Of a stretch of DNA of 42,661 nucleotides, positions 8,385 through 42,661 are shown in pieces. The notes below the pieces were generated by a model. It was given only the letters and a program-made list of their open reading frames with translations. It searched no databases and was not told where the DNA came from. Each line of letters begins with the position of its first letter. Position 1 is the first letter of the stretch. Source of the DNA: a virus; the IMG/VR virus record IMGVR_UViG_3300021478_000063, positions 1 through 42,661 of that record; one strand, given 5' to 3'. Both the position numbers and the translations under genes were made by a program.

Positions 8385-8879
8385 ATGATTCCTCCAATGA
8401 AAACCTCACCAGACGGTCGCAAATTCATCGAAATGGAAGAGGAAAGCGGGGTTGCCAAAACCCACGCCTACAATGACGGTACTGGCACATGGACAATCGG
8501 ATTTGGCCATACATCTGCTGCCGGATTGCCGCGTGTTTATCCCGGCATGGTTATAACCCCAGAACAGGCAGACGCCATACTTGGTAGCGATCTGGCTGCC
8601 GTCGAGGCTGACATCAACCATCACGTCACTGTGCCGCTGCAACCCAACCAGTTCGACATGCTGGGTAGTTTCGATTTCAACACCGGGGCGCTTGACCGTT
8701 CCGGATTGCTGCACCTTGTGAATGCCGGCGTTACCGATCCGGTGAAGATCACCAACGCGTTCTGCGCTTGGCGATATGCAAAAGTTCATGGTGTAGAAAC
8801 ACCGATCCTGCTGAGACGCAGGCAGCGCGAGGCAGCGATCTATCTGCATGGGTATCAGCAGTCAGAGCAAATAGCATAA
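8385..8879 (+). CDS. Endolysin, GH24 lysozyme (T4/P21 type muramidase)
   Basis: 164 aa, cleaving the beta-1,4 bond between MurNAc and GlcNAc in peptidoglycan. It carries the GH24 signature: a glutamate cluster at 18-20, then AYND with Asp31, Thr37 and TIGFGHT (37-43). The Asp-Thr spacing of 6 equals that of T4 lysozyme; the Glu-Asp spacing is two residues longer than in T4, so Glu19 or Glu20 is the likely acid. QPNQFDMLGSFDFNTGA and a terminal LLRRRQREAAIYL are further family hallmarks. There is no signal or anchor segment, so it should need the holin next door to reach the wall. ATG follows the spike stop directly; an in-frame ATG at 8397 is an alternative start. Confidence 0.93.
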   Translation: MIPPMKTSPDGRKFIEMEEESGVAKTHAYNDGTGTWTIGFGHTSAAGLPRVYPGMVITPEQADAILGSDLAAVEADINHHVTVPLQPNQFDMLGSFDFNTGALDRSGLLHLVNAGVTDPVKITNAFCAWRYAKVHGVETPILLRRRQREAAIYLHGYQQSEQIA

Positions 8880-9331: not shown

Positions 9332-10141
9332 ATGCGGAAGATTTTCTTGCTCACTACGGCCCTCGCTGCCCTAGCCGTGCCCGCCCATGCGGCTGATATG
9401 GCTCTCAAGGCCATACCCCCCGTTCCATTCACAGCCGCAGCCAGCGGCTTCTACTGGGGTGTGGGAACCTATGCGGGGGTGGCACAGTCGAATGTCAGCG
9501 GCACTAACTTGTTCGCTACCAGCCTTGCTACCAGCAACCTGACAGCTGATGGTGGTGGCGTCGATGTTGTATTGGGCTATCAGCACGGCTCTACCGCACT
9601 GGTTGGGTTCGGCAATTGGTGGAGAGTTCAAGCTGCCGGTGAGTACCAGAACATCCAGGGCGGCATTTCAGTGGCCGGCAACAGTGCATCGGTTGCCAGT
9701 CGCTGGGGCGCTACCCAGGAATTCGACGTTGGAGCGGATGTCATTACCTATGTGATGTCGGCACTGGGCCAGAACTCCATCGTCAACTTCCCAACCTTTA
9801 CGCCACAATTACCGGCAAACATCCAAGTCGGACTGCCCAAGCAATATTTTGGTGTGGAACTGCGCGAGTTCGGCATGGACGGCAATTTCGGCCAAGCACA
9901 CGGCGTCACGGTTGGAATCGCACCCGGCATCAAGACCGGCTTCTTGTATCCGACGCTGGACGCCACAACCGGCAAGACCAACGGTGGCGGTGTAGACCTC
10001 TGGGCTGACGTAAGCTGGGCCACCAAGGGCGCCACGCTGAATAACGTGTTTGCGGCCGGTGGAGAACCGCTGACCACGGGGGCCGGCGCCATGATGGGCA
10101 CCACCTACCGCGTCGGCATCACGGTTTTGCGTGGGCTGTAG
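9332..10141 (+). CDS. Phage-encoded outer-membrane beta-barrel protein (Omp25/RopB-like)
   Basis: 269 aa. A clear Sec signal peptide (MRKIFLLTTALAALAVPAHA, cleavage before AD) is followed by SGFYWGVGTYAGVAQ, resembling the (W)xGFYxGxxxG start of alphaproteobacterial Omp25/RopB-type barrels. The rest alternates polar and hydrophobic residues as amphipathic strands (VDVVLGYQHG, WWRVQAAGEYQNI, VTVGIAPGIKTGF, VDLWADVSWATKG) and ends YRVGITVLRGL rather than in a clear C-terminal aromatic. It has one of the best ribosome sites in the genome (AGGAGG) and its own upstream and downstream gaps, as expected of an independently expressed accessory gene. Possible roles (inference): masking the receptor against superinfection or altering host surface permeability. 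A structural role is less likely. Confidence 0.72.
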   Translation: MRKIFLLTTALAALAVPAHAADMALKAIPPVPFTAAASGFYWGVGTYAGVAQSNVSGTNLFATSLATSNLTADGGGVDVVLGYQHGSTALVGFGNWWRVQAAGEYQNIQGGISVAGNSASVASRWGATQEFDVGADVITYVMSALGQNSIVNFPTFTPQLPANIQVGLPKQYFGVELREFGMDGNFGQAHGVTVGIAPGIKTGFLYPTLDATTGKTNGGGVDLWADVSWATKGATLNNVFAAGGEPLTTGAGAMMGTTYRVGITVLRGL

Positions 10142-10999: not shown

Positions 11000-11164
11000 A
11001 TGCCCTCGATCACGCTACCCGCCAATGGCAAATGCCCCAAATGCGGAGCAGCCATCGCACTATCACGCATTGAGCCCCACCCGACCAAGGATGAGGCCCT
11101 GCATTACTACGACTGCGCCAAGTGCGGTCAGGTGCTGGTAAAGGTGTACGATACCAAACCTTAG
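11000..11164 (+). CDS. Zinc-ribbon microprotein (54 aa)
   Basis: 54 aa with two CxxC knuckles, CPKCG (Cys12, Cys15) and CAKCG (Cys39, Cys42), spaced as in a zinc ribbon. ATG lies 3 bases after the previous stop, in the same operon. Its TAG (11162-11164) overlaps the stop codon of the converging leftward gene. Small zinc ribbons often bind nucleic acid or protein partners, but no target can be read from the sequence. It is one of four zinc-ribbon-like proteins in this genome. Confidence 0.75.
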   Translation: MPSITLPANGKCPKCGAAIALSRIEPHPTKDEALHYYDCAKCGQVLVKVYDTKP

Positions 11165-11523
11165 GCCTTTGTGGCCGCCGCCACTGCCGGCGTGACCGGA
11201 GTATTGGCGGTTACTGCCGCGGCTAATCCAGTATCATTGGCGTTCAGTTGCTGCACGAGTGCATCGAGCGCGGCCTGGGTGGCCGGGTCGTTCGAGGGCG
11301 GGATAGCCGCGATCTGGGCGGCAAGGTTGCTGATCAGTGTTTCGACGCTGGTGGTTACGCTGGTGTTTGCGGCAACTTCCGCGGTCAGCTTGGTAAGGTC
11401 GATGGCCATTGTGTTCTCCTGGGAGGTTATCTTGTGAAGCAACGCGAGGATCAAATCCAGTTTGGGGATCAGCCCGCGTATGTCGTCCTTGGTGGCGACG
11501 TTATCAGGTGGAAAGAGGTTCAT
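11161..11523 (-). CDS. Small helical, coiled-coil phage protein
   Basis: 120 aa from ATG 11523. A second in-frame ATG at 11409 has a far better ribosome site (CAGGAGAACACAATG) and would give an 82-aa protein starting MAIDLTKLTAEVAANTSVTT. The upstream 38 residues also look protein-like (an amphipathic helix, LIPKLDLILALLHKIT), so both forms may be made. The body is a Thr/Ala-rich helix with coiled-coil character, followed by repeats of ANTPVT type, a style common in small phage proteins near lysis genes. Its stop overlaps the opposing zinc-ribbon gene. Function unknown. Confidence 0.65.
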   Translation of the reverse strand: MNLFPPDNVATKDDIRGLIPKLDLILALLHKITSQENTMAIDLTKLTAEVAANTSVTTSVETLISNLAAQIAAIPPSNDPATQAALDALVQQLNANDTGLAAAVTANTPVTPAVAAATKA

Positions 11524-11565: not shown

Positions 11566-11618
11566 CCCCACGCCGGCGGTTCACAGACTCTTGGGGAGGT
11601 TATGATACCGGCGTGGGG
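11566..11618. repeat. Long-armed inverted repeat, 11-bp perfect stem
   Basis: CCCCACGCCGG at 11566-11576 is perfectly complemented by CCGGCGTGGGG at 11608-11618, with a 31-base loop and two possible G-T pairs extending the stem. It lies in the 121-base gap between two leftward genes, just downstream of the PEP-CTERM gene. No T tract follows on either strand, so it is not a classic intrinsic terminator. It may stabilise the mRNA end, attenuate the next gene or mark a recombination boundary. Confidence 0.6.
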
Positions 11619-11644: not shown

Positions 11645-12343
11645 CTACCCGAATGCAGAAAGTGTCGAGCTCTGCTTTCTGCGCTTGGCAAATCCCAGTA
11701 TACCTAGGCCGCTGGCAAATAGCCAAATGGCCCCCGGCAGCGGAGTACTGGAAAACTGGTTGGCGTTGGGAACTATGGTGTACTCGAAGGCTGCCGAGCT
11801 TGTATCTGTCAGGATGACGGAGCCTATGAGACCTCCCGTGTCGGTGAATGTCAGCAGGTCAAAAAGTGTTTGCGTGCAGGTGGTGCCGTAGCACGCCAGA
11901 TTTGCCCCAGTATAGTTTGTTATCGTTGCACCACCGATAACATCAATCAGTGATCCACTACCATTTAGGCCGCTATAGAACTGAACTTCGTTATAGAGAT
12001 CTGGCGAGCCCCACACCATCGAAAAGGTGGTGTCGTTGATATTGTAGATCGCGGTGGCTGGGGAGCTGCTGCCGCCAAGGTTCAGGACACTATACACGGC
12101 ACTGGTCGCTGCAGCACTGCCATCCGGGCCTAGGCCAGTATTGAAGGCATAGGGCGACAGTGTTACGCCGGTAATGCTCCCTGTCGTATTCTGAAAGAGC
12201 CCGGTAGTTGAGGCGGGAGTAGGGGCGCCCTCAAGTGGAGCGTTGCCAACAAAGTCCTGTGACGTGATCGAGATGCTGTCGGCATTCGCGGTGCCGGCAA
12301 GAGCCGTCAGAGCAAGTGTTCCTATTGCGATTTTACCAAGCAT
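11645..12343 (-). CDS. Secreted protein with PEP-CTERM (VPLPA-type) sorting signal
   Basis: 232 aa. Residues 1-21 are a Sec signal peptide (MLGKIAIGTLALTALAGTANA). The middle 180 residues are beta-rich, low in charge and rich in G, S, T and N, with one cysteine pair (ACYGTTC), as in other PEP-CTERM exoproteins. The C-terminus has the full tripartite sorting signal: the motif TPLPGA, a hydrophobic helix (IWLFASGLGILGF) and a basic cluster (AKRRKQ). In bacteria such proteins are recognised by exosortase (EpsH) and linked to exopolysaccharide and biofilm formation. No exosortase gene is present here, so a host enzyme would be needed. It has a strong AGGAGG site 13 bases after the preceding leftward gene. 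Very unusual cargo for a phage; probably host-derived. Confidence 0.88.
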   Translation of the reverse strand: MLGKIAIGTLALTALAGTANADSISITSQDFVGNAPLEGAPTPASTTGLFQNTTGSITGVTLSPYAFNTGLGPDGSAAATSAVYSVLNLGGSSSPATAIYNINDTTFSMVWGSPDLYNEVQFYSGLNGSGSLIDVIGGATITNYTGANLACYGTTCTQTLFDLLTFTDTGGLIGSVILTDTSSAAFEYTIVPNANQFSSTPLPGAIWLFASGLGILGFAKRRKQSSTLSAFG

Positions 12344-12356
12344 TTAGCCCTCCTAG

Positions 12357-12572
12357 TTATGATGCCGTCATGGCATCGGGTGGTTCAATGTTGTCGGTTG
12401 ACCCTTGACGGATAGCCGCCACCGCGACTTTTGCACATCGCTCTCGTTCTTCGACTATGGCAAATTCGATTAACTCAGCGATGATCTTAATGTACGGCTC
12501 AAGCGACGGCACCCCTAGGCTTCGAAAGCCGGTTTCGACAAATTCGCGAGCTATATTTTCGGAACGACTCAT
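12357..12572 (-). CDS. Small phage protein with EERERCAKVA motif
   Basis: 71 aa, all helical, with the EERERCAKVA motif that recurs in many small phage early proteins of unknown function. The ATG is at 12570-12572, and the stop of the upstream gene begins immediately before it, so the two are in one operon. It precedes the PEP-CTERM gene. No catalytic residues are visible. Confidence 0.75.
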   Translation of the reverse strand: MSRSENIAREFVETGFRSLGVPSLEPYIKIIAELIEFAIVEERERCAKVAVAAIRQGSTDNIEPPDAMTAS

Positions 12573-12875
12573 TTAATTCTGCCGCTGCTTCTGCTGTGGC
12601 TGTGGCTGCCTCTCTTGGGGCCGCGTCAGGTAATCGACCGTGGCCAATAGCCAATGGGCATCATCACCACTAAATTTCAGCGATCTGCGCATCCTGAAAT
12701 TGGCATTGACAATCGTGGTGGCTACTTCGCCCATGACCGCAGCGATGTCCCTATCTTCGGCCGCCTTGGCCGCGGCGGCGACGCTGACTTGTGCGACCTG
12801 TGACGACTCGGTTTCGAGCGTCACGACAACATCGCGAGCGCGGCCGTTTGGAATGCCTCCATCATTATCAGTCAC
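12573..12875 (-). CDS. Hypothetical early protein with basic Gln-rich tail
   Basis: 100 aa. The N-terminal 60 residues are Ala/Val-rich and probably helical (VAAAAKAAEDRDIAAVMGEV); the C-terminus is a polar tail of Gln, Arg and Pro ending in QQKQRQN. The ATG overlaps the upstream stop by 4 bases (ATGA). It is not recognised. The basic tail would suit nucleic-acid contact, but that is only a guess. Confidence 0.65.
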   Translation of the reverse strand: MTDNDGGIPNGRARDVVVTLETESSQVAQVSVAAAAKAAEDRDIAAVMGEVATTIVNANFRMRRSLKFSGDDAHWLLATVDYLTRPQERQPQPQQKQRQN

Positions 12876-13063
12876 GAGTGTTCTCCACTAAGCATCCTGG
12901 CGAAACGGCGGTTTAGTTGCCCATCACTCAGGTCTTTGACGGCCGCCATGATTGTCCTTGCATCCTCACGCCGAGCACCGTCCATAAGCCATTGGCGCAC
13001 GTTGTGGTGCTCTATATGGGAGAGCAAGTTCTTGTAGCCCGGCTCGGGATAGATCTTTGCCAT
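12872..13063 (-). CDS. Small hypothetical early protein
   Basis: 63 aa, helical and charged (MAKIYPEPGYKNLLSHIEHH, then RREDARTIMAAVKDLSDGQL). It is tightly coupled: its start overlaps the end of the SSB-like gene by 1 base and its stop overlaps the next gene by 4. The coupling to an SSB-like gene suggests a role in the same DNA-metabolism operon. No family recognised. Confidence 0.7.
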   Translation of the reverse strand: MAKIYPEPGYKNLLSHIEHHNVRQWLMDGARREDARTIMAAVKDLSDGQLNRRFARMLSGEHS

Positions 13064-13512
13064 TAGAAAGGAATATCCCTTTTATCGTTACGATCCAGCG
13101 CCGGCATGGGGTCGGGGTCAACAAAGCCTTGCTGTGATGGAAAAGGTGCTGCTTGCTGTGGTGCGGGCGATTCCTGTCGCGGCGCCTCGTAAGTCGGTGG
13201 CTTGACTCGGATAGCCGGCACTATCTTGCCGCCAAACTCAACAAACGGATCAACGAACAGTGTGATCGTTTTGCCAATCCACTGGGTGTAGTCCTTACCG
13301 TGCAGAACACCAATGCGGTTGCCGTTAACTTTGTTAACCACAAGAGTCTTGTTGGTCCGCTCGAAACCCAGAACCAGTTTTTTCTTAATCTTGCCGTCCC
13401 GGTCGGTGAAGTCCCGCGGCGTGACTGATTTGATAATGACAACCGGTTCGCGGCCCTTGATATCGTCGGTTTTAAGACTGTCGCCAGAATAGATATCGTC
13501 AATGCTAGGCAT
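13063..13512 (-). CDS. Single-stranded-DNA-binding-like protein with DIPF tail
   Basis: 149 aa. The first 105 residues form a beta-rich domain of OB-fold type (EPVVIIKSVTPRDF, KKKLVLGFERTNKTLVVNKV, then WIGKTITLFVDPFVEFGGK) that matches a family of phage proteins beginning IDDIYSGDSLKxxDIKGRE. A proline- and glutamine-rich linker follows, then an acidic tip ending DRNDKRDIPF. The terminal DIPF is the hallmark of SSB tails that recruit replication and repair proteins. Length and layout (OB core, flexible linker, acidic tip) are those of SSB. Likely coats single-stranded DNA during phage replication. The start overlaps the upstream gene by 8 bases. Confidence 0.75.
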   Translation of the reverse strand: MPSIDDIYSGDSLKTDDIKGREPVVIIKSVTPRDFTDRDGKIKKKLVLGFERTNKTLVVNKVNGNRIGVLHGKDYTQWIGKTITLFVDPFVEFGGKIVPAIRVKPPTYEAPRQESPAPQQAAPFPSQQGFVDPDPMPALDRNDKRDIPF

Positions 13513-13774
13513 GTTCGGGTTTCCTTTCGGGTTTGGGCAGTATCAGTGTGCAGTGCATGTCCTCCATTGCGTCGGCCAATTCACGCAGTTCCTTGATATC
13601 GTTTGCGAGTTGCAGCATCGGCAGTGCGTCGGACGACCAGCCGCATTCGTTTAGTTTACCCATGTCGTACAGCCAGTGCTTGATATCGACAGTGTAATTA
13701 TTGGTGCGGCTGCGGATGGCATTGCACAACAGGCGCACGCGGTCGGCTTTTTCTATCGCTGACATGTCACTCAT
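13505..13774 (-). CDS. Hypothetical early protein
   Basis: 89 aa from ATG 13774. That start gives an ATGA overlap with the upstream gene, which is preferred over the longer in-frame start at 13819. The protein is helical and mixed in charge (AIEKADRVRLLCNAIRSR, then LANDIKELRELADAMEDM) with a proline- and lysine-rich end. It lies upstream of the SSB-like gene in the leftward operon. No family recognised. Confidence 0.65.
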   Translation of the reverse strand: MSDMSAIEKADRVRLLCNAIRSRTNNYTVDIKHWLYDMGKLNECGWSSDALPMLQLANDIKELRELADAMEDMHCTLILPKPERKPEHA

Positions 13775-14118
13775 TTGGACGGCCACCATATGTTGGCCTC
13801 GGGACTGTGGGCATCCCATTGCCGGATTGCCGCGTCCTCATCATCGGCGGTGGGGTGGAGTTTCAATTGTATACGCCGCTCCCATACCCGCTCGCGGGCC
13901 TCGGCCACGCGCATGTCGTAGGTCTTGCCGCCGCTCCATGCCCAATCGGATGCGGCAAGACTACGCGCGGCTTGCAGGTCCATGCCGATGCCGATGTAGC
14001 GGGCGACCTCTATGGCCATGTATTCGTCGTATGTCATGGCGGCATTTATGCACAAGGCATCGCCCTCGTCAATATGCACCTTGCATTTATTTTCTGCCTG
14101 TGCATTATTACCGGACAT
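13771..14118 (-). CDS. Hypothetical early protein, first gene of leftward operon
   Basis: 115 aa from ATG 14118, which shares two bases with the start of the divergent HTH regulator. Longer in-frame starts (up to 14199) would run into that gene. MTYDEYMAIEVARYIGIG inside could be a later true start. The body has tryptophan-rich and basic helices (SDWAWSGG, then VAEARERVWERRIQLKL). No family recognised. It heads the operon that runs to the PEP-CTERM gene and is probably controlled by the divergent regulator. Confidence 0.6.
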   Translation of the reverse strand: MSGNNAQAENKCKVHIDEGDALCINAAMTYDEYMAIEVARYIGIGMDLQAARSLAASDWAWSGGKTYDMRVAEARERVWERRIQLKLHPTADDEDAAIRQWDAHSPEANIWWPSK

Positions 14119-14314
14119 GATTACCGGCAAGGACATCAAGCGACATCGGGATCGGTTGGGCGAGAGCCAGACCGAGTTTGCCCGCCGCTTGTCCGTCAAT
14201 CAAGCCACTATATCGCGCTGGGAAAAGGGCGATCCCATTGAGGGCATTGCCCTGCTCGCGGTCGAATATGTGCTGGCCGAGTTGAGTCGGCAGGCAGTAC
14301 GAGGGATCACATGA
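14117..14314 (+). CDS. XRE/Cro-type helix-turn-helix regulator
   Basis: 65 aa. A five-helix Cro/CI-type domain fills it: GKDIKRHRDRLGESQTEFA, then the recognition pair ARRLSVNQATISRWEKG (about 24-40), typical of XRE proteins (Q-x-x-F-A...S-x-x-T-I-S-x-W-E-x-G). Start at ATG 14117 because translation upstream is incompatible with the family. Its start codon overlaps the divergent leftward gene's start by two bases, so each gene's promoter must lie within the other's coding sequence. It probably acts as a Cro-like repressor on one or both operons. The stop overlaps the next gene as ATGA. Confidence 0.85.
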   Translation: MITGKDIKRHRDRLGESQTEFARRLSVNQATISRWEKGDPIEGIALLAVEYVLAELSRQAVRGIT

Positions 14315-15502: not shown

Positions 15503-15791
15503 TCCGCAGGGCTATGCGCTGGCCATATCGGTGGTTTTGCAAGCCTACCCCCTAGATGTAGTACGTCAGTGCTGTGATCCCCGTACCGGACTGGCCCGCA
15601 CGCGCGAATTCACTCCCACGGTGGCCAGCATTGTCGAGTGGTGCGACCGTCGGGTGAGACAGCACGAGGGCGCGGTGATCCACGGGAAATTAGAGCAGGC
15701 AAAGATTTCCGAGGAAAGATTCACCCCCGAGCACCGGCTGTCCATGCTGGAGCGGCTCAAGGGGCTGTGGACATCACTCAAGGCTGCCTGA
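15339..15791 (+). CDS. Phage replication-associated protein, possible helicase loader
   Basis: 150 aa. Its first 164 bases overlap the DnaT-like gene out of frame. The core (LLGSYPHAKPADPQGYALAI, then CDPRTGLARTREFTPTVASI and EWCDRR) has the features of a phage protein often found with replication genes: a YP...DP start, and CDPRxGL...F.PT...I..WC. ATG 15339 has AGGAAAG 9 bases upstream; later in-frame starts exist. Basic and helical at the end. Loader function is inference from neighbours only. Confidence 0.62.
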   Translation: MPQEIASVTPSMRSEIITRAKQAAAALASPRPTEQQAAMEGKRLLGSYPHAKPADPQGYALAISVVLQAYPLDVVRQCCDPRTGLARTREFTPTVASIVEWCDRRVRQHEGAVIHGKLEQAKISEERFTPEHRLSMLERLKGLWTSLKAA

Positions 15792-16376: not shown

Positions 16377-16591
16377 TTTAGTGACTCAATAGAGAACCGC
16401 AGCCCACATATCAGTCCTTCTTTGATTTGGAGAGGCTCGGGGTGCCGGCTCATCGGACTCCATTCACGCCCCAGCTCAAATGAAATACGCTCGACCGTTA
16501 CCTTATCGGTTTGTATAACTATCTTGAAGTCCCGCGGCTCTATGCCGTGTTCCATAAGCCAAGCGTGCAGATGCTGAAATGTTTTGATCAT
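16373..16591 (-). CDS. Hypothetical leftward protein
   Basis: 72 aa, mixed helix and strand (HAWLMEHGIEPRDFKIVIQT, then KVTVERISFELGREW). It is coupled by 4-base overlaps to the HTH regulator upstream and the cysteine protein downstream. Not recognised. Confidence 0.65.
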   Translation of the reverse strand: MIKTFQHLHAWLMEHGIEPRDFKIVIQTDKVTVERISFELGREWSPMSRHPEPLQIKEGLICGLRFSIESLK

Positions 16592-16845
16592 GGTCTTTTG
16601 TCCGTCTCGCTCAGGATCATGCTTTGAATGAGCAGCGAAGTCGGGTTCATTTGTAACGCGCGCGTGATGCGAATCAGGGTGGACAGCGGGGGATCGGACA
16701 GACCGTGCTCATAGGCTGACAACTGCTGCGCGGTGATCTTGGACTTACTGGCCACATCCTGTTGGCTGAGTTCCAAATCCTCTCGTTTTGATGCCAGCCG
16801 GCGGCCGATTTCGGCCAGGAATCGGTAGTCGTGATGCTTGGGCAT
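16588..16845 (-). CDS. XRE-type helix-turn-helix repressor-like regulator
   Basis: 85 aa from ATG 16845. The longer reading frame (to 16902) would overlap the upstream gene, and the HTH family begins at this methionine. A full XRE domain is present: IGRRLASKREDLELSQQDVA, KSKITAQQLSAYEHGLSDPP and LSTLIRITRALQMNPTSLL, the standard order of five helices with recognition helix TAQQLSAYEHG. Probably a CI/Cro-type repressor. It is the second HTH protein in the control region and is transcribed from the leftward promoter at 17077-17106, together with the DUF551-type gene. Confidence 0.85.
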   Translation of the reverse strand: MPKHHDYRFLAEIGRRLASKREDLELSQQDVASKSKITAQQLSAYEHGLSDPPLSTLIRITRALQMNPTSLLIQSMILSETDKRP

Positions 16846-16856
16846 GTGACCGTACA

Positions 16857-17069
16857 CTAGAGGGGCGGTTCCGGTAATGGCATCCAGTGGGTCAGGGTGC
16901 ATGGTTCTGGGCTGTATTCGGTAGTCTCAGTGGGCTCGCACCGCCACTCACCGGGCCATCCATAGCTAACCGTTCCGATGCCCGGTTTGCTTTCAAGACC
17001 GATAACGCCATAGGCCAGAATACGAGTGCCATCGAGCGGAGCGGTAGTGATTGGTTGCCAGTTAGTCAT
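16857..17069 (-). CDS. DUF551-like protein, first gene of leftward operon
   Basis: 70 aa, a canonical DUF551 layout: NWQPITTAPLDGTRILAYG at the start and LTHWMPLPEPP at the end. Function unknown; such proteins are common in phage early regions. The predicted promoter's -10 box ends only 7 bases upstream of its ATG, so the mRNA may be leaderless. Second DUF551-type gene in the genome (the other is 14912-15100). Confidence 0.85.
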   Translation of the reverse strand: MTNWQPITTAPLDGTRILAYGVIGLESKPGIGTVSYGWPGEWRCEPTETTEYSPEPCTLTHWMPLPEPPL

Positions 17070-20270: not shown

Positions 20271-22142
20271 ATGCCCGACACCGCCCACATCCCGCTCAAG
20301 GCCGAAGCCCCTCCGGACGAGATCGAGAAGTTTGAGCTTAAGTCGTCGAGGGTCGCGCCGTTCCCGCGGGCCAAGTTCATTGCGTTTCTCAAACAGTTGA
20401 AGGTGCAGTCCAAGGATTACGGACTGGTGCCGTTCCGGCTGCTGGGCAGTCAGAAGTATTTGCTGGACGAGATCTGTGCGGCGCTGGATAAAGGGATAAC
20501 GGTGATTTATGTCCTCAAGAATAGACAGGCCGGCATCAGTACATTCCTGCTTGCCCTCGACCTTTTCTGGGCGTTCGAGCACAAGGGTCTATTGGGGGTA
20601 TTTATCACCCACGAGGAAGCTAGTCGTGATGATTTTCGCTCCGCAATCGAAGTCTTTTTCGCAGAGACGCCGAAAACGCACAAGGTCAACTACGTCCGGC
20701 ACAACAGAAACCTTCTCATTCTTAAGAATGCGTCCAAATTCCGTTACCTCATAGCGGGGACGACGAGTGGCAGGAAGGGCGGTCTGGGCCGCTCCGGTTC
20801 GGCCAACTACGTCCATGCGACGGAAGTGGCCTTTTATGGTAACGCGGACGATCTTGCGGAGTTTCGTGCCCAGACCTCGTCGCTCTACCCGCACCGGTTG
20901 GAGATCAACGAAAGCACGGCCAATGGCTTCAATCATTTCGAGGAAAGTTGGGACAATGCCAAGAAAGACCCGACCAAGGCCGCGATATTTATCGGCTGGT
21001 GGCGCGATGAGAGGAATGCGTTTCCTCTCGATCATCCATTCTTCCCCAAGTATATGCCGGATGGCATTTCATCGTCGCTTACGCCTCTTGAGCGCAAGCG
21101 TGTCCGGGAGGTTCGTGAGCAATATGCTTTTGAAATATCACTCCAACAAGTTGCCTGGTACCGTTGGCACCTTGAAAGCGAGAAGGTTGGCGACCAGTCG
21201 TTGATGGATCAGGAGTATCCATGGACCGATCAGGACGCCTTCCAAGCTACGGGTAGTCAGTTCTTTACTGCCGAGGCGCTGACCAATTGCATACGCGAGG
21301 CCAAGAAGCATCCCTTTCATACCTACCGCTACAAACTCACTCACAAGTTCGAGGAAACCAAGCTGCAGCAGACCAGGGACCCGCGGTCGCCGTTGCGGGT
21401 GTGGGAGGAAGCATCGAGGTTTGGTTACTACGCGCTGGGTTGCGATCCGGCGTTCGGATCGTCCGACGAGGCCGACAGGTCGGTGGTGTCGGTATGGCGC
21501 TGTTACGCCGATTGCATGGTGCAGGTTGCCGAGTTCTGCTCGCCCGAGCCGTCCACCTACCAGACCGCGTGGGTACTGTGCCATCTGGCCGGCTATTTCG
21601 GGCTGACCTGGATCATGCCGATCATCGAGTTGACCGGTGGCGCCGGCAAGGCGGTGATGGACGAGGTCGAGAAGGTGAGACGCTTGTCTGCCGAAATGCG
21701 CCCCCAGGACGACGAGCACGGTATCCGAAATATCCTTGGTAATATGAGATCGTTCTTCTATAGGCGCATCGATACGCTTGGTGGGTCGCTGCTCAAGGAA
21801 TGGCAGTCCACCGAGGATCTCAAGCGTATGGCCATGAACCAGCTTAAGAACGGGATCGAGTTGGGGCGTGTAGTGCCGCGCTCGATCCCCCTGATCGATG
21901 AAATGAGAAGAATCGTCAACGATGAGGGTCACATAGGGGGTGAGGGACGGGCCAAGGATGATCGCGTGATCGGCGCGGCGCTGGCCTATCAGGCCTGGAA
22001 TGTGTGGACCCAGCCGCGGGTGCGGGCACTCGGGCTGACCTATGCCCGCTCTCTGGAGATCGACGAACGGGGTGGAACCGAGCCGGTGGATAGGCTAATA
22101 GTCAATTATCTCAAGCGTTCGAACATCAAGGTGCCTGCCTAG
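20271..22142 (+). CDS. terL: Large terminase subunit (DNA-packaging ATPase/nuclease)
   Basis: 623 aa. It has the ATPase motor: an adenine-contact region, Walker A-type VLKNRQAGIST at 81-91 (with Lys83, Arg85 and Gln86 in place of a GxxxxGK), and Walker B with catalytic ATE at 183-185 (YVHATEVAFYG). The C-terminal RNase H-like nuclease has its first metal-binding Asp at GCDPAFGSSDEADRS (Asp392) and the last acidic pair at KDDRVIG (Asp563-564). It translocates DNA into the prohead through the portal and cuts concatemers. Immediately follows the TAT-type microprotein. No recognisable small terminase subunit is adjacent. Confidence 0.93.
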   Translation: MPDTAHIPLKAEAPPDEIEKFELKSSRVAPFPRAKFIAFLKQLKVQSKDYGLVPFRLLGSQKYLLDEICAALDKGITVIYVLKNRQAGISTFLLALDLFWAFEHKGLLGVFITHEEASRDDFRSAIEVFFAETPKTHKVNYVRHNRNLLILKNASKFRYLIAGTTSGRKGGLGRSGSANYVHATEVAFYGNADDLAEFRAQTSSLYPHRLEINESTANGFNHFEESWDNAKKDPTKAAIFIGWWRDERNAFPLDHPFFPKYMPDGISSSLTPLERKRVREVREQYAFEISLQQVAWYRWHLESEKVGDQSLMDQEYPWTDQDAFQATGSQFFTAEALTNCIREAKKHPFHTYRYKLTHKFEETKLQQTRDPRSPLRVWEEASRFGYYALGCDPAFGSSDEADRSVVSVWRCYADCMVQVAEFCSPEPSTYQTAWVLCHLAGYFGLTWIMPIIELTGGAGKAVMDEVEKVRRLSAEMRPQDDEHGIRNILGNMRSFFYRRIDTLGGSLLKEWQSTEDLKRMAMNQLKNGIELGRVVPRSIPLIDEMRRIVNDEGHIGGEGRAKDDRVIGAALAYQAWNVWTQPRVRALGLTYARSLEIDERGGTEPVDRLIVNYLKRSNIKVPA

Positions 22143-22318: not shown

Positions 22319-22794
22319 GCGGTGTGATTCGGTCATGGCAGTGTCTGAACTCCCGCTGTGGGAATGAATTCTCATCCTGGGACAGAAATCCTAGTTGCCC
22401 GTCCTGCCAGTGCATTCGTACCCAGTGGATACCGGGAGGTGGTCATGTTGCCGGCACGGCTAAAGCGGCCGATGCCGAGCTGCGCAATCTCGTTGACGTT
22501 TTCAAGATGACCGATGTGAACTCCGCTACGCGCGGCGAGCGCGCCATGCCCAAACTGCCGGCCGCTCCGCCCAATCCGGGGCGTAACGCGCCGAATATGC
22601 AGTTTGGGCCGGGCTTCACGTCGCCGATTGTGACGGATCGGAACGGTCGCCCAATGGCAACATGTCTGCCGTCCACTACCAATGTGAACTTCAAGGCCAA
22701 GGTGGCGACCAATTCGGCCTTACCGCACTCCAGATCAGTGCCGGGGGTGCATTCCAATACGGTGATTGAGTCCAGCCATAGGCCGCCAAGATGA
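22315..22794 (+). CDS. Zinc-ribbon-bearing phage protein upstream of portal
   Basis: 159 aa. A four-cysteine zinc ribbon occupies the first 40 residues (CLNSRCG, then CPSCQC), followed by WIPGGGHVAGTAKAADAELR and a disordered, polar C-terminus. A zinc ribbon with W(V/I)PGGGH next to the portal gene is a familiar arrangement in podovirus-like phages. It could be a packaging or assembly accessory; exact role unknown. Confidence 0.7.
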   Translation: MSGVIRSWQCLNSRCGNEFSSWDRNPSCPSCQCIRTQWIPGGGHVAGTAKAADAELRNLVDVFKMTDVNSATRGERAMPKLPAAPPNPGRNAPNMQFGPGFTSPIVTDRNGRPMATCLPSTTNVNFKAKVATNSALPHSRSVPGVHSNTVIESSHRPPR

Positions 22795-22808
22795 TGTGTT
22801 TTTAAACG

Positions 22809-22991
22809 ATGACCATTCAGCCAAATAACGAAAGAAAATTTAGGCTTGAGTGCTTGCAGTTAGCTGTGAGTACAATGCACCCGGATGAGCAGGCTGACCT
22901 TGGTGATGTAGTGAAGCGAGCTGAAACGCTGTACCGCTATGTTGTGGAAGGAGCATCTGAGGTGGCATCGGTAGTTAGAATTGCCAAATGA
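22809..22991 (+). CDS. Small helical protein upstream of portal
   Basis: 60 aa (RKFRLECLQLAVSTMHPDEQ, then LGDVVKRAETLYRYVVEG), a two-helix protein of the type often encoded just before phage portals. The stop overlaps the portal start as ATGA. Unknown function. Confidence 0.65.
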   Translation: MTIQPNNERKFRLECLQLAVSTMHPDEQADLGDVVKRAETLYRYVVEGASEVASVVRIAK

Positions 22992-24751
22992 TTATTCCCG
23001 AAACTGAATCGCTCAAGGTTGAATATCTCACATGGATTCTCGACACTTGTCTGGCCTCCAAGGAAGAGCGCAAGGCGTTGTACGACCGCCGCCGGCAGTT
23101 CTTCTTGTACGGCACCAGCGGCGACAGCGATATCATCTACAATCGGATCGAGAGCCATCTTGATCTGGTAGGCTCGTTTCTCTACTCGCCTGATCACGCC
23201 GAGTTCTCGCTGTCGGCGCCGGCTAATGCCAGTGATGCTGAGGTGAAGCAATTCATGGCGGCGCAGGACACCTTCAACGGCGATTTTCGTGATGCCGGTT
23301 TGTTCGACTTCTTTGGCAATGCGCTCGGCTGGTCGCTGGTGATGGACACCATCATCGGCAAGATGGGCTGGTCGGATGTGAAAGAGGAAGAAACTTTCAC
23401 CATGATCATGCCTTGGCAGTTCGGGGTGTTTGCCGAGGAAGTGACCGACCTGGAAAGCCAGCCGGCGTTCGTCCATACCTACTATATCGATTACGACAAT
23501 GCCTGCCAGCGGCTGGTCCGGGCCGGGCTGTCGAGCAAGATCGATCAGCTCAATGTGGTCAACACTCCATTCGAGTCGCCATTCCCGGAAATGGTGACGA
23601 GGATGATTATCGCCTCGACATCTGGGGAGAATTTAAGTGGCAATGTTACCGGTTCAGTTAATCCCTCCTACGTTGCCCGACCATCCTATGTGGCCAAAAT
23701 CAATAGACCTCTGGTCGCTTTCCATGAGCTCACCGTTTGGGACGACGAGCAAGAGGATTACCGTGTATTCTTCATGGTCGACCCTGGCATCGTCCTCTCC
23801 GACAGTATGCGAACCATCGAAGTCCTGAAAAAGGCTGGCGCCCGTAAGGGGGCCACTAAGGAGCAGGAGAAGTTCTACAATACGAGTTGCAATCCGTTCT
23901 TTCCCAAAGATCACCCCTACGTCCAGATCTGCCCCTATGGCATTTATGAATACTTCTGGGGGAAGGCGCACATCGAGTCTTTGATTCCGCTGCAGCAGTG
24001 GTCCAACGAACGGCTCGACCAGATTCACGACATCCTCGAGAAACAAGCCTATCCGCCCCGTGTTGGCTCGGGTTTCATGGGCATGACCGAGGAAAAGATG
24101 GACGCCTTTGGCGGAGCCGACACATGGGTCATGGACCAGTTGCCGCAGGCGGCGATCAAGGAGCTAACCCCTCAAATGCCGCCGGACATCTTTGCCGACT
24201 ACAACTCCATCGGCGCGCTGTTCGTCGAAGCCAGCGGATTGACCGAGACGTTGCAGGGCAAGGGCACCAAGGATGTGCGCTCGACCGGTCACGCCAAGCA
24301 GATGCTGACCGCGGGCTCGGGCCGCATCAAGAAAACTGCCACCAAGTTGGAGGCGCCGCTGGTGCGTATGGGAGATCTGGCGCTCAAGTTGAACATGCGC
24401 AATAACGACGAGTCGATCCGGCCGGACCCGAAAGACGATGGTAAGCCCGGCGATCCGTTCCTGTATGCCAACTTGTCATCCGATTATTCGCTGTCTGTTG
24501 CCGGCCATTCGCACTCGCCGCTGTTCTCCGACGACAGTCGCGAAATGGCCACGCTACTCAAGAAGGCCAATGCCATCGATGAGGAAGCGTTCCTGCGCAT
24601 GATGAACCCGCCGAACAAGAACAACCTGATTCATTCGCTGCGCGCACGACAGAAGAAAATGGCCCAAGTTGCGGCGCAGCGGGCCCAGCAAGGCTTGCCG
24701 CCGCCCGGTGAGAAGCCAGCGAAGAAGAATGGTGCTGCTGCTCACGGTTGA
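22988..24751 (+). CDS. Portal protein (head-tail connector)
   Basis: 587 aa. Long helices, a tryptophan- and aspartate-rich core (FFGNALGWSLVMDTIIGKMG), then SLIPLQQWSNERLDQIHDIL and a C-terminal Ala/Gln-rich barrel helix, in the order and size of podovirus portal proteins. The portal forms the dodecameric ring through which DNA enters. Its position directly after the terminase and before scaffold and capsid genes is the usual order. The match is by architecture and context. Confidence 0.85.
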   Translation: MIIPETESLKVEYLTWILDTCLASKEERKALYDRRRQFFLYGTSGDSDIIYNRIESHLDLVGSFLYSPDHAEFSLSAPANASDAEVKQFMAAQDTFNGDFRDAGLFDFFGNALGWSLVMDTIIGKMGWSDVKEEETFTMIMPWQFGVFAEEVTDLESQPAFVHTYYIDYDNACQRLVRAGLSSKIDQLNVVNTPFESPFPEMVTRMIIASTSGENLSGNVTGSVNPSYVARPSYVAKINRPLVAFHELTVWDDEQEDYRVFFMVDPGIVLSDSMRTIEVLKKAGARKGATKEQEKFYNTSCNPFFPKDHPYVQICPYGIYEYFWGKAHIESLIPLQQWSNERLDQIHDILEKQAYPPRVGSGFMGMTEEKMDAFGGADTWVMDQLPQAAIKELTPQMPPDIFADYNSIGALFVEASGLTETLQGKGTKDVRSTGHAKQMLTAGSGRIKKTATKLEAPLVRMGDLALKLNMRNNDESIRPDPKDDGKPGDPFLYANLSSDYSLSVAGHSHSPLFSDDSREMATLLKKANAIDEEAFLRMMNPPNKNNLIHSLRARQKKMAQVAAQRAQQGLPPPGEKPAKKNGAAAHG

Positions 24752-26269: not shown

Positions 26270-27280
26270 ATGCCGGTCTTCGGCCAGGGCATAATCCCCG
26301 CAAGTGGCGCTATCGCTAGTGAGCTATCTGCGGTTGTACGCCGCGCCTTCATGAACAAGGTGTATGTGCAAATCTGGAAATCGGCGCCGCTGATTTCGGC
26401 CCTCCTAGCCTCGGCCCAGGTCGCCACTGGCGGTCTATCGCCGATCACGGCGCCGGTACAGGGCACACCGATGGTGTCCGGGCAGTGGGTGGACTACTCG
26501 GGCAGCTTCGAGCAGCCCGGTGTGCAGCCCGGCATTCAGGATGCCGAGTTTGATTTGAAGGCGTTCGTCTCGACCATCCCGTTCCTGGGCATGGAAGGCT
26601 TGGTGCAGTTGGACTACTCCGTAGTTCCCCTGATCGAAGCCCGAATGAACGATTCGACCAACGTCACCATCGATACCTTTGCCACTTCGCTCTACAATAA
26701 CGTGGCCAACACACAACAGTTGATCGGGTTGCCGGCCGCTATCGATGACGGCACGTTCTCGGCGACCTACGGCGGCATCAACCGCACCACCAACACCTTC
26801 TGGAAATCGACCTACGTTCACGGCAACGGCAACGTCACGCCGACCCGCAATCTGATGCTCCAATACATTTCGCAGGTGTCCAAGACGACCGGCGAAATGC
26901 CGTCCATCGGCATCATGGGTTTTGGCACTTGGACGTTGCTGGCTCAGGATTTCACTTCTGCGGAACGCTACAACATCACTCCAGGCTCGGCTTTCGGGGC
27001 AGACGAGAAGGCATCCAGCCTGTTCCGCGCCCTGGATGTGGCCGGGGTGCCGTTCTATGCCGATCCGTACTGCCCGGAGGGCGTGCTCTACCTCATCAAC
27101 ACCAATTACCTGTCGCTGTATCTGCATGAGCGGGCCGCGTTTTCCTTCACCGGGTTCGAATCAACCCTCCCGAACAACCAGCTCGGTTATATCGGCGCCA
27201 TCCTTTCGCTGCTCGAACTTGTGAATGTAAAATGTAAGTCCCACGGCAAGTTTGACGGGCTCGCGTTCTTGAACATCTGA
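26270..27280 (+). CDS. Major capsid protein
   Basis: 336 aa, with an AAAGGA site 9 bases upstream. A mix of helix and strand (ASELSAVVRRAFMNKVYVQI, then IDTFATSLYNNVANTQQLIG) and an adjacent scaffold gene fit a podovirus capsid protein of the HK97-fold superfamily, whose chains form the icosahedral shell. The sequence segment YISQVSKTTGEMPSIGIMGF resembles a typical capsid P- or A-domain. I assign it from size, place and composition, not from a signature motif. Confidence 0.8.
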   Translation: MPVFGQGIIPASGAIASELSAVVRRAFMNKVYVQIWKSAPLISALLASAQVATGGLSPITAPVQGTPMVSGQWVDYSGSFEQPGVQPGIQDAEFDLKAFVSTIPFLGMEGLVQLDYSVVPLIEARMNDSTNVTIDTFATSLYNNVANTQQLIGLPAAIDDGTFSATYGGINRTTNTFWKSTYVHGNGNVTPTRNLMLQYISQVSKTTGEMPSIGIMGFGTWTLLAQDFTSAERYNITPGSAFGADEKASSLFRALDVAGVPFYADPYCPEGVLYLINTNYLSLYLHERAAFSFTGFESTLPNNQLGYIGAILSLLELVNVKCKSHGKFDGLAFLNI

Positions 27281-41934: not shown

Positions 41935-42659
41935 TGAACAAGATCTTTGCACTGCTGTTAGTTCTGTCAGTCCAGCCTGCACTGGCTGGATCAGGCACCA
42001 TAGGAATGACACCCGGCTCAGGTGCCGCTGCGGCCACGACAACGGACGGCAGCAATAACATTTATTGGCGCAATACGCTGTGGGATTATGCTGCCGGAGC
42101 GAACGGTGTTGCCGTTAACAGTAGTCATAGTTTGCAGACTTCTCTCGCCTCGTCCTACTTCGACACCAGTGCAGGCTCGTCTACTGTAAATACCATGCGT
42201 GTCACCATGGACCAAAGTCAGCTTGCCGCGCAGCTCACAACGGCGACAACAATGAGTTCCGGTTATCAACTGGTCGGATTTCCGACCGATCAGCCTGTTT
42301 CCAATATGGTCCAGGCGCAGAGCAATGGCACTACATCTTCGCGTGTCGTGGCCGCGTCGAGCACTAACGCAACCAGCTTAAAAGCATCTGCGGGAAATGC
42401 TTTTAATATCGATCTCTTTAATACCGCAGCCTATACGGTCTTTGTGAAGTTCTACAACAAGGCCTCTGCGCCGACCGTTGGCACCGATACGCCCGTGTGG
42501 ACTCTGCCGATTGTGCAGGGCACCAGCTACTCCAGAACATTCCCGTTTGGTAAATCATTCTCCACTGGTATTGCCTATGCCATCACGAAATTACAGGCAG
42601 ATAGTGACACTACCGCGGTTGTGGCGGGAGACGTTACTGGTGCAATTGACTGGAAGTAG
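41934..42659 (+). CDS. Secreted beta-rich protein (signal peptide), last gene of circle
   Basis: 241 aa from ATG 41934, coupled by one-base overlap to the microprotein upstream. The open frame begins earlier but this start gives a proper signal peptide (MNKIFALLLVLSVQPALAGS). The mature part has low charge, many Ser/Thr/Ala and repeats of strand type (TSFKVTM-like stretches such as NTMRVTMDQSQLAAQLTTAT), then an Ig- or jelly-roll-like end (YTVFVKFYNKASAPTVGTDT). Probably a tail fibre or extracellular protein. The stop at 42657-42659 reappears at 123-125. Confidence 0.65.
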   Translation: MNKIFALLLVLSVQPALAGSGTIGMTPGSGAAAATTTDGSNNIYWRNTLWDYAAGANGVAVNSSHSLQTSLASSYFDTSAGSSTVNTMRVTMDQSQLAAQLTTATTMSSGYQLVGFPTDQPVSNMVQAQSNGTTSSRVVAASSTNATSLKASAGNAFNIDLFNTAAYTVFVKFYNKASAPTVGTDTPVWTLPIVQGTSYSRTFPFGKSFSTGIAYAITKLQADSDTTAVVAGDVTGAIDWK

Positions 42660-42661
42660 GG
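42535..42661. repeat. Terminal direct repeat (circular overlap), right copy
   Basis: Identical to bases 1-127. Marks the artificial break of a circular molecule; the two ends join to restore one continuous gene (41934 to 42659, then the next gene at 138). Confidence 0.95.

Follow-up and report, generated by a model that had tools for sequence, protein, structure and literature searches.

Why would a soil bacteriophage carry a gene for what looks like a bacterial cell-surface protein, complete with a tag for a sorting enzyme that the phage does not encode? The question is raised by a gene at positions 11645–12343 (minus strand) of a viral genome from IMG/VR, the whole of which (42,661 nt) is referred to here as the window. 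In bacteria, proteins of the PEP-CTERM class are exported through the Sec pathway, have their C-terminal tag recognized by an exosortase, and are tied to exopolysaccharide loci (PMC1569441). Such proteins have also been shown to be needed for floc formation (PMC9850573; cited in PMC12642866), and yet their roles are still poorly known. As set out below, the 232-aa product of the gene is probably a phage-encoded substrate of the host's exosortase, and similar genes recur in many other viral contigs.

An exported protein with a PEP-CTERM-type tag

The coordinates given for the gene in a first-pass annotation, made from sequence alone, are correct. The ORF begins with ATG and, judged against the codon usage of the phage, scores as coding (+0.28 bits per codon, the other five frames being negative), and a ribosome-binding site, AGGAGG (12349–12354, minus strand), lies 5 nt ahead of the start codon; the gene is presumably expressed during infection.

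The product, a PEP-CTERM-type (TPLPGA) exported protein, has three parts, all encoded on the minus strand. By sequence and hydropathy, residues 1–21 (MLGKIAIGTLALTALAGTANA; 12281–12343) form a Sec signal peptide, which is followed by D and would be cut after ANA. Residues 71–187 (11783–12133) match the Npun_F0296 exosortase-dependent surface protein domain (NCBIfam NF050191), at 32 bits against a cut-off of 29 for the protein itself and at 33.3 bits (E = 1.4e-9) when the model was searched against the phage genome. Finally, residues 199–223 (11675–11749) hold a C-terminal sorting signal, in which TPLPGA is joined to a hydrophobic helix (residues 203–218, within a hydropathy peak at 200–220) and a basic KRRK run (AKRRK); the C-terminus reads SSTPLPGAIWLFASGLGILGFAKRRKQSSTLSAFG, its ending also being given as STPLPGAIWLFASGLGILGFAKRRKQSSTLSAFG.

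The models for the sorting signal itself place their matches correctly yet score below cut-off, including PF07589 (18.0 bits against 20.7), TIGR03370 (14.8 against 25.35) and TIGR02595 (8.9 against 16), and the protein is thus no certified member of any of these motif families. The first-pass annotation had described a Sec signal together with a complete PEP-CTERM signal, and had proposed HMM thresholds as the check. The Sec signal and the overall architecture are indeed present, but the motif models taken alone do not reach threshold, and it is the whole-protein family NF050191 that does. Because of these motif scores, the identification depends on the signal peptide, domain and tag together, plus the closest named relative, a VPLPA-CTERM protein encoded on a Jannaschia plasmid (36% identity over residues 88–227, E = 3e-5) and surrounded there by glycosyltransferase genes.

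Searches of INPHARED, IMG/VR and 50 relatives of the phage revealed no close homologues of the protein, and 398 Pseudomonadota genomes yielded tag-level matches only. The comparison of phage and host homologues that had been suggested earlier therefore found nothing by which to date a host-to-phage transfer. A sequence search of solved structures likewise gave no match, single-sequence structure prediction produced no usable fold (pLDDT 30.6), and PADLOC defence models matched neither the gene product nor nine neighboring proteins.

A complete phage genome and its possible hosts

The window begins and ends with direct repeats of 127 bp (1–127 and 42535–42661) that are 100% identical, indicating a complete, circularly closed assembly of about 42.5 kb. 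Hallmark genes on its plus strand encode a phage lysozyme, or endolysin (8385–8879; PF00959, 96.5 bits), the terminase large subunit (20271–22142; E = 2e-111 by tblastn to annotated terminases), a portal protein (22988–24751; phrog_1216, E = 5e-6) and the major capsid protein (26270–27280; phrog_9953, E = 4.6e-29). At least 80 relatives of the capsid protein occur in IMG/VR, and the nearest entries in INPHARED are two phages from spring water, both uncultured, with a capsid identity of 56–57%. With a complete phage contig and an NF050191 score above cut-off, the earlier assertion that a phage gene encodes a protein of the exosortase-substrate type is borne out. So is the accompanying statement that no exosortase is encoded, as a PF09721 search was negative in this phage and in the 37 other phage records tested (38 in all); any processing must therefore use a host enzyme. 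The phage encodes no tyrosine integrase, for which reason lysogenic conversion is not assumed here. Two repressor-type helix-turn-helix regulators are encoded at 14012–14314 and 16588–16902.

As a clue to the host, the best phage matches of the lysozyme are from Rhizobium and Bradyrhizobium phages, a direction that is suggestive only, and a second exported protein (9332–10141, described below), considered as a host clue, had no match in phages or plasmids. Capsid relatives within genomes were also tried as a route to the host, but these occurred only in metagenome-assembled bins of mixed phyla, with no single phylum indicated, and were judged to be phage contigs binned by chance. Among the genomes sampled, an exosortase (PF09721) was detected in 31 of 200 from Pseudomonadota and in 32 of 99 from Acidobacteriota, weak partial matches included in the latter, making a suitable host plausible but not certain.

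Genomic surroundings and probable accessory cargo

Upstream of the gene, six small co-directional genes abut or overlap one another on the minus strand (12357–14199), at 12357–12572, 12573–12875, 12872–13063, 13063–13512 (which matches phrog_21613), 13505–13819 and 13771–14199. The spacing suggests a leftward operon with the PEP-CTERM-type gene near its end. A strong hairpin (11566–11618, minus strand) sits between the gene and the ORF at 11161–11523; it contains a perfect 11-nt inverted repeat (11566–11576 and 11608–11618) with 31 nt between the arms, and the 96-nt stretch would be very stable as RNA (–48.2 kcal/mol, z = –5.1). The hairpin has no T run, and it is possible that it marks the 3′ end of the transcript and acts as a terminator.

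In the two nearest relatives (G019 and G021, capsid identity 97–98%) and in G002 (92%), the flanking genes are kept while the region between them differs and is occupied by other small genes, one of which, in G021, encodes a DNA methyltransferase. None of the three has a homologue of the 232-aa protein. A variable region between kept flanks has the pattern of accessory cargo. The cargo region of G002 also encodes a protein with a long GYGYGDGDG repeat run (22671–23306), and a weak PEP-CTERM match in G021 (15510–15557, 11.4 bits) was dismissed.

The second predicted exported protein of the phage (9332–10141, plus strand) has a Sec signal, resembles an outer-membrane protein by eye and has no Pfam match of its own; genes 80% and 57% identical to it are found in the two nearest relatives. 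At a comparable place, G002 encodes a PF13505 beta-barrel protein (L120:17416–18063). Members of this clade may habitually encode outer-membrane proteins of their own.

A Pfam search of the 50 relatives uncovered one strong PEP-CTERM protein, VPEPSTWAMMILGFVGLAFAFRTRRR of G036 (35.7 bits, over cut-off). This search undercounts, as PF07589 misses PLPGA-type tags, finding them in 0 of 4 records known to carry them, and an architecture scan (signal, PxP, helix and basic tail) was therefore run as a correction on 9197 frames of the clade. The frames with a signal were those of the gene in the window, G036 and G031, along with one spurious frame (L015), which was dismissed. The G031 protein, TPLPGALGLFAAGLLGLGGLVRSLRK, was found in two overlapping stretches (L058 and L109); it carries TPLPGALGLF and matches the XDP1 and flocculation-PepA models, both below cut-off. 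The ectodomains of the three proteins are mutually unrelated, and their tags are of two types. The G031 gene (23378–24073, minus strand; L109:3378–4073) adjoins a DNA methyltransferase gene.

Recurrence in viral contigs

DNA patterns were used to search IMG/VR for PLPGAxWLF, which occurred in 6 contigs, and for PEP[S/T]TWAM[LI], which occurred in 118 stretches as against 0 matches for a permuted control pattern in which the order of those codons was reversed. The motif lay within 48 residues of the ORF end in 114 loci, representing 110 distinct proteins. A Sec-like start was present in 105 of these 110, a somewhat generous figure given that starts were chosen by a scoring rule favoring signal-like sequences. 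The proteins comprise three large ectodomain families (27, 19 and 14 members) and many singletons, and INPHARED contains no relative of two of the large families. For close pairs within families, dN/dS was mostly 0.01–0.35, which points to purifying selection on phage PEP-CTERM families, these being families other than that of the 232-aa protein, which has no close homologue.

Several of these genes lie among unmistakable phage genes. For example, the gene at L271:8659–9393 has a DNA polymerase (phrog_405, E = 6e-198) and a helicase on one side and tail fibers on the other, and in contig L123 two PEP-CTERM-type genes have a P22-type portal gene (326 bits) and a terminase gene as neighbors. In three prophages, an integrase lies at one end, and a PEP-CTERM gene on the opposite strand stands beside a GH108 endolysin and scores 52 bits with the PEPxxWA-CTERM model (cut-off 35). 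The loci L222:3112–3651, L173:11100–11639 and L204:443–982 represent nearly the same prophage, with the PEPxxWA-CTERM gene on the strand opposite to the adjoining tail-fiber and endolysin genes. That the three prophages come from cultured isolates was deduced from how their IMG records are numbered and not from a named source. One isolate-derived viral record, G495 (L172, L193 and L216), has five PEP-CTERM genes and probably retains host flank. Some other IMG/VR contigs may likewise carry host flanks, G495 being the most obvious case among the part of the contigs that was checked.

More than 100 other viral contigs thus carry PEP-CTERM-type genes, and several of these contigs are certainly phages. 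The first-pass annotation had regarded such proteins as normally chromosomal, a view that needs revising in light of the 110 distinct proteins from viral contigs, where such proteins are common and not confined to chromosomes. This recurrence suggests that phages probably exploit exosortase sorting by the host to change the surface of infected cells.

Tags, ectodomains and fold

One alignment (A3) joins proteins from four contigs (L136:1309–1941, L170:1382–2032, L123:1589–2212 and L126:6188–6799), one of which is G036, the relative of this phage. Their ectodomains are about 50% identical, and two of the proteins carry PEPSTWAMM while the other two carry PLPGAVWLF. Such a pattern points to passage from phage to phage accompanied by a switch of tag, although inheritance by way of bacteria could produce the same distribution. 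A tag change on homologous ectodomains is expected if the tag must suit the exosortase of the host.

The largest phage PEP-CTERM family (A2), which shares no homology with the 232-aa protein beyond the tag, has a predicted fold consisting of a beta-sandwich and a C-terminal helix (pLDDT 83). With Z about 8, the model bears a weak likeness to adhesins and to jelly-roll modules that bind glycans, a resemblance within the noise for common folds and suggestive at best.

Relation to known systems

The 232-aa protein shares with the PEP-CTERM/exosortase system (EpsH, Xrt) and its VPLPA-type signals (TIGR03370, TIGR02595, PF07589) a Sec signal, a short proline motif, a helix, a basic C-terminal tail and a low-complexity extracellular part; it differs in being encoded by a phage that lacks an exosortase and in having a tag below the motif cut-offs. 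Its likeness to the Npun_F0296 family lies in a domain above the curated cut-off, and the difference is that the domain occurs in a phage genome. The flocculation-associated PepA (NF033554) belongs to the same signal class, and the G031 protein matches it weakly (20.3 bits, cut-off 80), whereas PepA is bacterial, needed for floc formation and without significant likeness to the 232-aa protein.

Phage envelope proteins that exclude other phages are known and include the T5 Llp lipoprotein, Cor, and phage porins such as Lc of PA-2. Like these, the 232-aa protein is a small exported phage cargo predicted to reach the host envelope, but they take a lipoprotein or barrel-assembly route instead of the exosortase sorting proposed here. 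A search of literature that excluded most subscription journals gave no report of phage-borne exosortase substrates. Phage envelope cargo and PEP-CTERM proteins are each already known.

The wider recurrence of such genes is more interesting than the single gene in the window. It is about as likely as not that many soil phages, whether lytic or temperate, display proteins of their own on the surface of the infected cell via the host exosortase, exchanging tags to suit that enzyme. If so, phage exosortase substrates would make up a class of envelope effectors not yet described, and exosortases would be tied to the conflict between phages and their hosts in soil and biofilms. Moreover, if phages repeatedly acquire such proteins, then the proteins would have a decisive role at the cell surface for which phage infection offers a direct assay.

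Proposed function and alternative explanations

We propose that the gene is accessory cargo whose product would enter the Sec pathway and lodge for a short time in the inner membrane through its C-terminal helix. The host exosortase would then cut at TPLPGA and move the protein to the outer surface or into extracellular polysaccharide; cleavage by that enzyme is likely. Phages commonly remodel the surface of an occupied cell to exclude competitors, and a second exported protein is encoded nearby (9332–10141). Together, these considerations place superinfection exclusion first among the possible benefits and matrix remodeling second, with little separating the two. The displayed protein would most likely change the envelope of the infected cell so that further phages fail to adsorb, through masking of a receptor or glycan, and we put exclusion forward tentatively.

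In the second-ranked reading, which is possible but somewhat doubtful, the displayed protein would alter host exopolysaccharide, aggregation or dispersal, thereby aiding phage spread or shielding the infected cell or lysogen. The links of PEP-CTERM proteins with exopolysaccharide loci and floc formation cited above are in keeping with such a role, as are the glycosyltransferase genes around the Jannaschia relative and the indecisive likeness of the A2 beta-sandwich to glycan-binding modules. Set against this, the A2 match is no better than a common arrangement would give, and it was obtained for a family other than that of the 232-aa protein.

It is conceivable, though unlikely, that the C-terminal helix is a membrane anchor and nothing else, leaving an inner-membrane, periplasm-facing protein that blocks phage DNA or a receptor from the inside with no exosortase step. 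Such immunity proteins occur in other phages, and this reading would accommodate both the subthreshold motif scores and the presence of exosortase in just about a sixth of the Pseudomonadota genomes sampled. The whole-protein match to an exosortase-dependent family argues against it, as do the VPLPA-CTERM annotation of the closest named relative and the PEPxxWA and PEP-CTERM signals of other phages, which are strong and above cut-off.

Exosortase-dependent display also accounts better for the data than two further readings. The gene could be a captured host gene riding as a neutral passenger of no benefit to the phage, as its absence from the nearest relatives and its position in a variable cargo region might suggest; this is improbable, given that one clade alone offers at least three independent cases and viral contigs more than 100, that the families are under purifying selection, and that the ORF is intact and preceded by a good ribosome-binding site. 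Still less probable is a decoy that floods the host exosortase and halts normal sorting of host surface proteins. Such a decoy would explain why the tag is kept on unrelated ectodomains within one clade and why one ectodomain family bears different tags, but purifying selection on the ectodomains of phage families would be needless for it. Finally, an assembly chimera or host contamination, as host flanks in contigs such as G495 might prompt one to suspect, is scarcely credible for the window, where the terminal repeats are perfect, the gene lies within a run of abutting phage genes and has phage-like codon usage, and the genes flanking it are borne out by relatives.
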